Source of the DNA: Alphaproteobacteria bacterium
Lineage (GTDB): Bacteria; Pseudomonadota; Alphaproteobacteria; Reyranellales; Reyranellaceae
Assembly: GCA_019635875.1 (NCBI GenBank)
Contig: JAHBYP010000001.1
Location: 558,001 to 622,000 of the forward strand
Direction: 5' to 3'
DNA length: 64,000 nt
Below are positions 45,678 to 56,616 of this stretch, in pieces (positions within the stretch are counted from its first letter, which is position 1; each line of letters opens with the position of its first letter). Position numbers and translations under genes: made by a program. The notes below the pieces were generated by a model. That model did not search any database. It saw only the letters and a list, made by a program, of their open reading frames with translations, and had not been told where the DNA came from.

Positions 45678-47879
45678 ATGCGCCTTCGCCAAGACATAGC
45701 CGCGCCTGTCCCCGTGAATTCGGTGGACGCCCTTTCTCCCCGAGCGGGGGAAAGTGCAGCGACGCTCGCGCGACTGGTTCTCGCTCTCGCACTGTTGATG
45801 TCCGTCCTCGGTGCCGGCGCTCCCGCCCGTGCCGCCGGCTCCGACTGGGTGAAGACAGAGCAGACCGAGCTGCGGCTGGTCTCGGCGGTCGACGCGGTGG
45901 GCGATTCGCGAACCGTGACGCTCGGCCTGCATTTCCGCATGAAGCCGGGCTGGAAGATCTACTGGCGCTCGCCCGGCGACGCAGGCTACCCGCCCTCGAT
46001 CGACTGGAAAGGCTCGGCCAATCTGGAAAAGGCCAGCCTGCTGTGGCCGGCGCCCTACCGCTTCGATGTCTCCGGCCTGACCACCCTGGGCTACAAGGAC
46101 GAGGTCGTGCTGCCGCTCGCCGCCACCCTGGTCAAGGCGGGCGACGCGCTCTCGCTGCGCGCCTCGGTCGACTACCTCACCTGCGACGACGTCTGCATTC
46201 CCTACACCGCGAAGCTGGAGCTCGACCTGCCGGCGGGGGCGGGCTCGCCGTCGGCGGAAGCGCCGATGATCGGTGACTTCCTCGCGCGCCAGCCCGCGAC
46301 CACGGGCTTGAGCATCGAGCGGGCGAGCCTGCGCGACGTGCCGAGGAAGGATGGCAAGCCGGGCGAGGCCATCGTCGAGGCTACCGTCAGCGCGCGGGGC
46401 GAGCGCGCCTTCGTCAAGCCCGACATCGTCGCCGAGCACGCCGCCATCGCCGTTTCCGACCCGCCGCGGGTCAGGCTCGACGATGGCGGCCGGCGCGCGG
46501 TGTTCACCTTCACGCTGGCCGGCGACAAGCTCACCGCGGCGAGCCTCGCGGGACAGAAGCTGGTGCTGACCGTGCTCGACGCGCCGCTGGCGGTCGAGGT
46601 CGAGGCGATCGCCTCGCTCGGCGCGCCGCCGCCGACGTCGTCGGCCTTCGGCGAGCTCGCGGCGATGCTGCTGGTGGCGCTGCTCGGCGGCCTGATCCTC
46701 AACGTCATGCCCTGCGTCCTGCCGGTGCTGTCGCTGAAGGTGATCGGCGCGGTGAGCCATGGCGGCCAGGCCTCATCGCGCGTGCGCGCCGGCTTCCTTG
46801 CCTCGTCGGCCGGCATCCTCGTCTCGTTCCTGGTGCTGGCCGGCGGCGCGGTCGCGCTCAAGGCCGCCGGCGCCACGGTCGGCTGGGGCATCCAGTTCCA
46901 GCAGCCGGTGTTCCTCGCCTTCATCATCGCGGTGGTGCTGCTCTTCGCGCTCAACCTCGCGGGCCTGTTCGATATCGCCTTGCCGGCATGGCTCGCCGGC
47001 GCGGCGGTGGCGGGCGAGCAACGCGCGGCGCGCTCCGAGCTCTCGGGTCATTTCGCGTCGGGCGCCTTCGCGGCCCTGCTGGCGACGCCGTGCTCGGCGC
47101 CCTTTGTCGGCACGGCGCTGACCTTTGCGCTCTCGCGCGGATCGCTGGAGACGGTGGCGATCTTCACGGCGCTGGGACTGGGTCTCGCCGCGCCGTTCCT
47201 GCTGGTGGCGGCGTTCCCCAAGCTCGCGACACGATTGCCCAAGCCCGGCGCGTGGATGCTGTGGGTGAAGCGCGTCATGGCGCTGGCCCTGTTCGCGACG
47301 GCGGTGTGGCTGTTCACCGTGCTGGGCGGCGCGGCGGGCTGGAACGCGGTCGCGGCGGTGGCCGCGATCCTGGCGGTGATGGCGCTCGCCATCGGCCTGC
47401 GCCGGCGACTCGGCGGCTTCGCGGTGCCTGTGGCCATCGCCGCCGCGGCGCTCGCCATGGCGGCGCCGCTGGTGGTGCAGGCGCCGGCGCCGGCCTCGGC
47501 GGCGGTGGCCTCCGGTCGCTGGCTGCCGCTCGATCCGGCGCGCGATATCCGGGCGCAGATCGAGGAGCGGCTGGCCGGCGGCAGGATCGTGATCGTCGAC
47601 GTCACCGCCGACTGGTGCCTCACCTGCCAGGTCAACAAGAAGCTGGTGCTCGACGCCGCCGATGTCGCCGCGAGGCTCGACCGCGACGGCGTGCTGGCGG
47701 TGCGCGCCGACTGGACCCGGCCCTCGCCGGCGATCGCGGCCTATCTCAAGGCCAATCAGCGCTTCGGCATCCCGTTCAACATCGTCTACGGCCCGGGCGC
47801 GCCGCAGGGCGTTCCGCTGCCCGAGTTGTTGAGCGTCGATCTCGTGATGGGCGCCCTCGACAAGGCCGGGCGCAAGTAG
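45678..47879 (+). CDS. Protein-disulfide reductase, DsbD/ScsB type
   Basis: Membrane protein of 733 residues that moves electrons from cytoplasmic thioredoxin to the periplasm. In order: signal peptide, DsbD alpha-like N-domain (GWKIYWRSPGDAG; cysteines in YLTCDDVCIPY), a second beta domain, a membrane domain with the two redox cysteines in NVMPCVLPVLS and ATPCSAPFVG, and a C-terminal thioredoxin-like domain with DWCLTCQVNKK. The start at 45678 follows GGAAG. Residues about 14-27 come from a short palindrome (45732-45754), lengthening the N-terminus before the signal peptide. The small DsbD-like protein at 36508 may be a partner or relative. Confidence 0.93.
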   Translation: MRLRQDIAAPVPVNSVDALSPRAGESAATLARLVLALALLMSVLGAGAPARAAGSDWVKTEQTELRLVSAVDAVGDSRTVTLGLHFRMKPGWKIYWRSPGDAGYPPSIDWKGSANLEKASLLWPAPYRFDVSGLTTLGYKDEVVLPLAATLVKAGDALSLRASVDYLTCDDVCIPYTAKLELDLPAGAGSPSAEAPMIGDFLARQPATTGLSIERASLRDVPRKDGKPGEAIVEATVSARGERAFVKPDIVAEHAAIAVSDPPRVRLDDGGRRAVFTFTLAGDKLTAASLAGQKLVLTVLDAPLAVEVEAIASLGAPPPTSSAFGELAAMLLVALLGGLILNVMPCVLPVLSLKVIGAVSHGGQASSRVRAGFLASSAGILVSFLVLAGGAVALKAAGATVGWGIQFQQPVFLAFIIAVVLLFALNLAGLFDIALPAWLAGAAVAGEQRAARSELSGHFASGAFAALLATPCSAPFVGTALTFALSRGSLETVAIFTALGLGLAAPFLLVAAFPKLATRLPKPGAWMLWVKRVMALALFATAVWLFTVLGGAAGWNAVAAVAAILAVMALAIGLRRRLGGFAVPVAIAAAALAMAAPLVVQAPAPASAAVASGRWLPLDPARDIRAQIEERLAGGRIVIVDVTADWCLTCQVNKKLVLDAADVAARLDRDGVLAVRADWTRPSPAIAAYLKANQRFGIPFNIVYGPGAPQGVPLPELLSVDLVMGALDKAGRK

Positions 47880-49250: not shown

Positions 49251-49343
49251 GGTGGCACGGATGGACAAATCCCGCGCGCGACCCTAGGTAGGGGATGGCC
49301 GTCCGGTCGTGGCGGCTGCTGTTCCGTCAAGGAGACAACATCA

Positions 49344-49826
49344 ATGGTCAAGGTCGGCGACAAGGTGCCGAGCGCGACGTTGAGGTATCTGGGGCCGGAA
49401 GGGCCCAAGACGATCTCGACCGACGAGCTCTTCGCATCGGGCAAGAAAGTGGTGGCCTTCGCGCTTCCCGGCGCGTTCACTCCCACCTGAAGCGCCAAGC
49501 ATGTGCCAGGTTTTCTGGCCAACCACGACGCGCTGAAGGGTAAAGGTATCGACACGATCGCCTGCATTTCCGTCAACGACGCCTTCGTCATGGGCGCCTG
49601 GGCCAAGAGCACGGGCACCGGCGAGAAGGTGATGATGCTGGGCGACGGCAATGGCGAGTTCACTGAGAAGATGGGGCTGACGCTCGACGCCACCCGCAAC
49701 GGCCTGGGCAAGCGTTCGCAGCGCTACGCCATGGTGGTCGAGGACGGCGTCATCAAGCAGCTCCATGTCGAGGCGCCGGGCGCCTTCGAGGTCTCGAGCG
49801 CCGAGGCTGTTCTCAAGGGTCTCTGA
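49344..49826 (+). CDS. Selenocysteine-containing peroxiredoxin, Prx5/type II (UGA-recoded)
   Basis: A single frame of 160 sense codons with one internal TGA at 49488-49490 (codon 49). The TGA stands exactly at the peroxidatic cysteine: [16 protein letters not shown], where the next gene's otherwise similar protein has Cys48 in PGAFTPTCSAKH. The frame remains open and well conserved on both sides, ending with [10 protein letters not shown] as in the paralogue, and the second cysteine (Cys74) of type II peroxiredoxins is kept. The 49488 TGA is followed at once by a bacterial SECIS-like stem-loop. It should reduce peroxides with a selenol; selenium genes (selA, selB, selC, selD) are not in the window. 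GGAGA lies upstream of the ATG. If not recoded it would be a 48-residue fragment. Confidence 0.85.
49491..49534 (+). promoter_or_regulatory. Bacterial SECIS-like stem-loop after the in-frame TGA
   Basis: Begins at the first base after the TGA. The lower stem AGCGC (49491-49495) pairs with GCGCT (49530-49534). The upper stem GCCAG (49505-49509) pairs with CTGGC (49515-49519) and the apical loop is GTTTT, so a G and U open the loop. From TGA to the loop is 19 nt, within the known range for bacterial elements bound by SelB. The interior loops allow further G-C and U-A pairs beside the upper stem. Confidence 0.7.
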
Positions 49827-49901
49827 ACGGGGTGGCATCGGCCCTCGCCGCCCCGATAAGATGGAGCGGTGAGGGCCGATGTGCTCCGAGGAGAGACCGA
49901 G

Positions 49902-50381
49902 ATGATCAAGGTAGGCGACCGCATTCCGACGGCGACGCTGCGCGAGAAGACCGCCGAGGGCGTCAAGCCCGTCACCACGGACGAGCTGTTCAAGGGCAGG
50001 AAGGTGGCGCTGTTCGCGCTGCCCGGCGCCTTTACGCCGACATGCTCGGCCAAGCACGTGCCGAGCTTCGTCAACAACGCCGACGCGCTGAAGGCCAAGG
50101 GCATCAGCGACATCGTCTGCGTCTCGGTCAACGACGCCTTCGTCATGGAGGCCTGGGGCAAGGACCAGAAGGCCGAGGGCAAGGTGCGCATGCTGGCCGA
50201 CGGCAATGGCGAGTTCTCCGAGGCGCTCGGGCTGACCTTCGACGCCTCCGGCTTCGGCATGGGCAAGCGCTCGCAGCGCTACGCCATGGTGGTCGATGAC
50301 GGCGTGGTCAAGGCGCTGAACGTCGAGAAGCCCGGTGCCTTCGAGGTGTCGAGCGGCGACGCGGTGCTCAAGGCGCTCTGA
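49902..50381 (+). CDS. Peroxiredoxin, Prx5/type II, cysteine form
   Basis: Thiol peroxidase of 159 residues with peroxidatic Cys48 in PGAFTPTCSAKHVPSF and a second Cys73 in IVCVSVND, as in plant type II and human Prx5 enzymes. It is strongly similar to the selenocysteine form encoded 75 bp upstream. The ATG at 49902 follows GAGGAGAG. The two genes probably arose by duplication. Confidence 0.95.
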   Translation: MIKVGDRIPTATLREKTAEGVKPVTTDELFKGRKVALFALPGAFTPTCSAKHVPSFVNNADALKAKGISDIVCVSVNDAFVMEAWGKDQKAEGKVRMLADGNGEFSEALGLTFDASGFGMGKRSQRYAMVVDDGVVKALNVEKPGAFEVSSGDAVLKAL

Positions 50382-56368: not shown

Positions 56369-56412
56369 GCTGGGGTGCGTCGCTATGGTGGCCGCCGCCA
56401 GATGATCCCCAT

Positions 56413-56616
56413 GGGAGAGAGCGTTTTCGCCGACGCGAAGTCGCCGCCGAAGGAGCAACCGCCCCGGAAACTCTCAGGCACCCAGGACCGTGGGGGGATG
56501 GCACTCTGGAAAGTGGCCGCGTGCGCGAAAGCGCGGGGCGGCCCACCGACGAGGTAAGTCGGCGGCGCGCTCAATTGCGTCCCGGCCAATCTTTCAGGTC
56601 ACCAGACAGAGGGGGC
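56413..56616 (+). promoter_or_regulatory. Tandem glycine riboswitch
   Basis: Two aptamers in series upstream of gcvT. The first holds GGGAGAGAG, GCCGAAGGAGCAACCGCC, GGAAACTCTCAGGCACCC, AGGACCG and GGCACTCTGG. The second, after a short linker, holds GGCGGCCC, the purine-rich core, CCAATCTTTCAGGTC and CAGACAGAGG. Glycine binding should raise expression of the gcv operon. No terminator hairpin with a T tract follows, so control may be at translation. Confidence 0.85.

Follow-up and report, generated by a model that had tools for sequence, protein, structure and literature searches.

Selenocysteine in Bacterial Peroxiredoxins

Peroxiredoxins containing selenocysteine (Sec) are known from bacteria; they form the family Prx with the motif TxxU, and PrxU of Eubacterium acidaminophilum is one example (PMC1794560; PMC13188914, Table 1). 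An inventory from 2026, which covers 119 families and subfamilies, files Prx under PF00578 (TxxU), and gives Redoxin, PF08534, with a UxxC motif only (PMC13188914). A review from 2022 places Sec-Prx in COG1225 (PMC9312934). PF08534 and UxxC are also the assignment of the 'Prx-like 3' Redoxin selenoproteins of marine metagenomes, for which the match to pfam08534 is weak, with an E-value above 0.001 (PMC2398784; PMC13188914). When it comes to the Alphaproteobacteria, a survey from 2006 found FdhA to be the only selenoprotein family (PMC1794560).

The gene described here lies in a 64,000-nucleotide stretch of a Reyranellaceae genome (the window). It has one TGA inside its reading frame, at codon 49, and this codon is almost certainly read as selenocysteine at the catalytic position of a peroxiredoxin, here called Sec-Prx5. 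Like Sec-Prx of the PrxU kind, the protein would have a PxxxTxxU motif in which Sec takes the place of the peroxidatic Cys, and would depend on SelB and on a SECIS element within the coding region. Sec-Prx is, however, filed under PF00578 (PMC13188914) or under COG1225/Bcp (PMC9312934), while the window protein belongs to Prx5/PF08534. The NCBI model for PrxU, NF040737, scores it at 25.6 bits, below the curated cut-off of 270, and NCBIfam (June 2026) contains no model that fits it. The Pfam family name PF08534 is shared with Prx-like 3, but the motif of the window protein is TPTU-SAK without a Cys at +3, hence not UxxC, and PF08534 fits it well (122.7 bits, E-value 1.4e-35).

The Cys-containing Prx5 and type II peroxiredoxins, such as human PRDX5, poplar PRX D (1tp9), Vibrio Prx3 (5k2i), and the Burkholderia protein 4f82, have the same fold, the same PGAFTPTC-SxxH active site and a similar length, and differ in having the peroxidatic Cys where the window protein has Sec. 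The residue equivalent to Cys74 of the window protein is Cys in Burkholderia 4f82 and Ala in Vibrio Prx3. The gene resembles fdhA in that a UGA is decoded in the same genome with a SECIS in the same register. Unlike FdhA, Sec-Prx5 is by family a peroxidase and not a formate dehydrogenase, and would thus be a second selenoprotein family in the lineage.

A Sec peroxiredoxin of the Prx5 subfamily is absent from NCBIfam and from the peroxiredoxin entries of the 2026 inventory (PMC13188914). No paper was found in which the terms for Sec-containing proteins and for Prx5 come together, in a search that was thin on subscription papers, and the sole paper found to name both Reyranella and selenocysteine is unrelated. 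An earlier note, made from the DNA letters, had called a Prx5-type selenoprotein poorly described, and this holds within the literature searched. Prx5 forms may nevertheless be present, unnoticed, in large surveys that treat all T/SxxU peroxiredoxins as one group. A peroxidase from a subfamily not listed among known selenoproteins is added by this gene to an alphaproteobacterial lineage in which the 2006 survey had only formate dehydrogenase.

The Sec-Prx5 Gene and Its Product

The features of the locus, all on the forward strand of the window, are as follows.

49329-49334, +: Shine-Dalgarno-like AAGGAG, 9 nt 5' of the ATG (from the sequence)
49344-49826, +: Sec-Prx5 gene, encoding a 160-residue Prx5/AHP1-type peroxiredoxin with probable selenocysteine at position 49 (translation, PF08534 match, AlphaFold2 and Foldseek)
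49488-49490, +: TGA codon for the probable Sec49, the peroxidatic residue in PGAFTPTU (sequence; identical codon in 21 of 21 full-length TGA copies of the family)
49502-49521, +: predicted bacterial SECIS hairpin, UG-[U17]-GCCAG-GUUUU-CUGGC-CA (fold, bSECIS constraints, fdhA register, minimum of synonymous divergence)
49563-49565, +: TGC codon for Cys74, candidate resolving cysteine (Cys in the homologues read and in the alignment)
49828-49888, +: strong hairpin, with a 16-bp core, in the intergenic region that separates the Sec gene from its Cys twin (fold; conservation in the genus)
49902-50381, +: Cys twin, a Prx5-type peroxiredoxin with an ordinary Cys, 68% identical to Sec-Prx5 (open reading frame, profile match)

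Translation confirmed that the frame is intact apart from a single TGA at codon 49, where PGAFTPTC has its catalytic Cys, as the earlier note had stated; the third base of this codon was also correctly placed there, as the A at 49490. The terminal stop is a second TGA (49824-49826), the active-site context is PGAFTPT[U]SAKHVPGF, and the protein ends with AVLKGL. The internal TGA stands in place of the invariant peroxidatic Cys of the Pfam Redoxin family, so that the Redoxin domain and its PGAFTPTC-SxxH active site are both found with Sec replacing Cys. Annotation that takes such a TGA as a stop would shorten genes of this kind or call them broken.

The fold predicted by AlphaFold2 has a pLDDT of 91.7, and its top Foldseek matches (4f82, 3uma, 5k2j, and 1tp9) are all Prx5 or type II peroxiredoxins, with TM-scores of 0.93-0.96. 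The solved structures nearest by sequence belong to the same two groups, and the assignment of the protein as Prx5-type is thus borne out by profile, sequence and predicted fold alike. Cys74, which had been pointed out as a retained second redox cysteine, is invariant in the 55 homologues that were read (55/55), and it is present in Sec-Prx5 as well as in its twin. A purine-rich site of the GGAG type is found 5' of most copies among these homologues.

Distribution of TGA and Cys Copies

A copy with one in-frame TGA is found in 24 of the 75 Reyranellaceae genomes, and most of the others have Cys. The TGA form is present throughout the window's genus and genus g5 (four genomes each) and in the one genome sampled from each of g2 and g4; in the large genus g3 it is found in part of the genomes. 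Of 55 distinct full-length homologues read codon by codon, 32 were Cys copies and 23 were TGA copies, two of the latter being distant and the other 21 from the family. Each of the 23 TGA copies is full length, has Cys74, and contains exactly one stop, at codon 49; in the copies read, position 49 is always Cys or UGA and never Trp. The alternation between TGA and Cys codons that the earlier note had proposed to look for is therefore seen among the relatives, none of the orthologues is decayed, and with 21 distinct full-length family copies that each have TGA49 as their one stop, its argument that a chance nonsense mutation is unlikely stands.

In a sample of 385 Alphaproteobacteria genomes, an internal TGA was confined to members of the family among the matches listed, and the matches listed for genomes from outside the family had no internal stop of any kind. 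A scan of about 85,000 species for the exact degenerate pattern PGAFTPT-TGA-xxxHxP gave 23 carrier species, 21 of them at 71-92% identity to the window protein; the other two are the MAGs with the distant copies L051 and L062 described below. Reyranella and Reyranellaceae appear among the record titles of the close carriers, which also comprise the cultured strains Enhydrobacter aerosaccus ATCC 27094 and Vineibacter terrae CC-CFT640. TGA49 is thus not a sequencing error, being found in separately assembled genomes from 23 species records.

Selenocysteine Machinery

The window's genome (6.2 Mb in 17 contigs, with an estimated completeness of 100%) encodes the complete machinery for Sec insertion, for which a search had been suggested. 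On contig C2 are found selA (265623-266732; SelA, 520.7 bits), selB (263492-265375; SelB, 457 bits) and selD (282513-283421; SelD, 266 bits), and a tRNA-Sec gene, selC, with the anticodon TCA (72.3 bits) adjoins selB. The genome also has a second, classic selenoprotein gene, the formate dehydrogenase alpha gene fdhA, with a single in-frame TGA. Together these genes indicate that decoding of UGA as Sec is available in this cell.

SelA is nearly universal among the family members, and its co-occurrence with the TGA form within the family therefore carries little weight. Four genomes without a strong SelA match (G015, G031, G041, and G050) have no TGA copy, only Cys copies. In two genomes with the TGA form (G004 and G026) SelA was not found, and both of these have SelB. 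The tRNA-Sec gene is nested inside selB in some other Alphaproteobacteria (PMC8124441); at locus L003 (8160-8255 and 8433-10376) it is encoded on the opposite strand, immediately past the 3' end of selB, and is not nested.

Selection and the SECIS Hairpin

The part of the gene downstream of the TGA is under purifying selection, with a median dN/dS of about 0.24 in the TGA copies of the family; this is close to the 0.22 of the Cys copies and agrees with the claim that the downstream half is as well conserved as the upstream half. A UGA at a site held by Cys in homologues, conserved in orthologues with selection acting downstream of it, is what characterizes a selenoprotein gene, and this is what is found here.

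In the TGA copies the synonymous divergence in codons 50-60 is 0.116, compared to 0.385 in the rest of the gene, and only one in 100,000 random codon sets is as low. Across the whole gene, synonymous divergence reaches its minimum in the 11 codons that begin with codon 49. In the Cys copies, codons 50-60 are not conserved (0.378 vs. 0.289 elsewhere). A minimum just past the TGA and only in the TGA copies is the signature of an RNA element.

The conserved DNA at this position, AAGCATGTGCCAGGTTTTCTGGCC, is predicted to fold as UG-[U]-GCCAG-GUUUU-CUGGC-CA with -8.6 kcal/mol. Counting the U of UGA as nucleotide 1, the bulged U is nucleotide 17 (49504), and the loop opens with G23 (49510) and U24 (49511). 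With the loop GUUUU, a 5-bp stem, a length of 19 nt, and this folding energy, the hairpin agrees with all bSECIS constraints as printed in PMC13188914. In fdhA of this genome the SECIS, GG-[U]-GUCCA-GUU-UGGGC-CC, likewise has a bulged U17 and a loop with G23 and U24, and is thus in the same register. The SECIS of Escherichia coli fdhF shares this register. U17, G23, and U24 combined with a 5-bp stem are present in 18 of the 23 TGA copies and in none of the 32 Cys copies. No Rfam family matches the hairpin at the Sec gene.

On its own the window hairpin is modestly stable (z -1.83; its stability is matched by 9 of 200 shuffled and 209 of 2000 synonymous versions), and its helix hardly varies among the copies. 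Since such single-sequence statistics are weak, the argument for a SECIS rests on the comparative synonymous constraint. U17 and G23 are moreover partly dictated by the protein motif HVPG, and the force of the argument therefore lies in this constraint together with U24 and the stem. It is shown by comparison between the copies that UGA has been kept as a sense codon at the catalytic site, with a SECIS just after it. The earlier suggestion of a probable selenoprotein is accordingly supported by the complete Sec machinery, the alternation of TGA and Cys, the conservation of the TGA across species, and a SECIS hairpin under synonymous constraint.

Alternative Explanations and Proposed Mechanism

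If a nonsense mutation had hit one of two tandem Prx copies and the function were covered by the Cys twin, the gene would be a pseudogene. An intact tandem Cys copy does exist in the window's genome and in several relatives. However, several genera whose proteins are 71-92% identical share this TGA at this codon, without any further stop or frameshift, and decay predicts neither the low downstream dN/dS nor a synonymous constraint that is strongest just past the TGA; a pseudogene is therefore very improbable. The TGA might also terminate translation, with a restart at the GTG at 49503 giving a separate polypeptide of 107 residues, and the open frame 49503-49826 indeed begins with this codon. 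But the GTG encodes Val54, a codon common to nearly all Cys homologues, and each product would, going by the predicted structure, be left without half of one compact fold and the peroxidatic residue would be lost. A split gene also leaves the SECIS-type synonymous constraint unexplained, and it can hardly be given any credence.

Read-through of UGA happens to some extent in bacteria, and a near-cognate tRNA for Trp or Cys could in principle decode the codon instead of tRNA-Sec. This has a very small probability given that the Sec machinery is complete, that the SECIS is in the fdhA register, and that Trp is never found at position 49 in the copies read. All three explanations were therefore rejected.

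The explanation we favour is highly probable on the comparative evidence: a Prx5-type peroxiredoxin with a peroxidatic Sec49 inserted by means of SelB and the SECIS, with redox chemistry as expected from its homologues, next to a selenium-independent Cys twin. SelB on the SECIS hairpin would deliver Sec-tRNA-Sec to the UGA so that the ribosome completes the 160-residue enzyme, and there is strong support for this step. Going by its homologues, Sec49 would then attack the peroxide through its selenolate, which would be converted to selenenic acid. Judging from the chemistry of Prx5 and type II peroxiredoxins, this acid would be resolved by Cys74 (as a selenenylsulfide), by glutathione/glutaredoxin, or by thioredoxin, and the enzyme would then be re-reduced.

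The Cys Twin and the Evolution of the Sec Form

About 75 nt separate the Sec gene from the start of the Cys twin, which has TGC at the peroxidatic site, so the neighbouring gene is the Cys form, as was noted earlier. The other sampled genomes of the window's genus share this tandem arrangement, as do g5 and several genomes of g3, and its Cys copy is probably a selenium-independent paralogue. Sec and Cys twins in one genome provide a natural side-by-side test of a long-standing question, why a peroxidase should use selenium if sulfur works.

The stretch between the stop codon and the twin (77-78 nt) folds with -49 kcal/mol here and with -46 to -51 kcal/mol in three genomes of the same genus. 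The arm pair of the 49828-49888 hairpin occurs at one site in the genome only, and it is therefore not a dispersed repeat. In g5 the corresponding stretch has a different hairpin, e.g., AAGGCGGGATC..GATCCCGCCTTTCGTTTT, that resembles an intrinsic terminator. A consensus search of the DNA around the pair gave neither a sigma-70-type promoter nor a U-tract terminator. The DNA near the pair also includes a DsbD-type thiol:disulfide interchange gene, two genes upstream (45678-47879, +).

Two of the 23 TGA copies are distant. L051 (4067-4534), from a MAG labelled Rokubacteria in which SelB is present, is 54% identical to the window protein; L062 (4827-5300), from a marine Rhodospirillaceae MAG in which SelB was not detected, is 57% identical. 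Among its relatives with a match, each stands alone in having the TGA, L051 in 13 genomes and L062 in 70. Either could therefore be a recent conversion or an error, and neither was counted in support of the selenoprotein reading. L051 and the two family copies L081 and L087 have Cys-like DNA downstream of the TGA and lack U24. L081 and L087 cluster with the Cys copies in the tree, L081 further has a ribosome-binding region of the Cys type, and the two are candidates for very recent Cys-to-Sec conversions.

The homologue tree was an unrooted one, built without column 49. Mapping the Sec label on it takes at least three changes (2-4 in the bootstrap), and large Sec clades are found in g1 plus g5 and in g3. 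A more speculative model, which we regard as rather unlikely, is that the Sec/Cys pair and the intergenic hairpin form a selenium-responsive unit. The Sec enzyme would then be made when selenium is present, and without selenium termination at UGA49 would alter the expression of the Cys twin. As a further part of this model, HVPG, by supplying U17 and G23, would pre-adapt Prx5 mRNA as a SECIS and so ease repeated conversion from Cys to Sec, as in L081/L087 and L051.

Elsewhere in the window, tandem glycine riboswitch aptamers (RF00504; 64.6 and 37.7 bits) are found at 56402-56613 (+).
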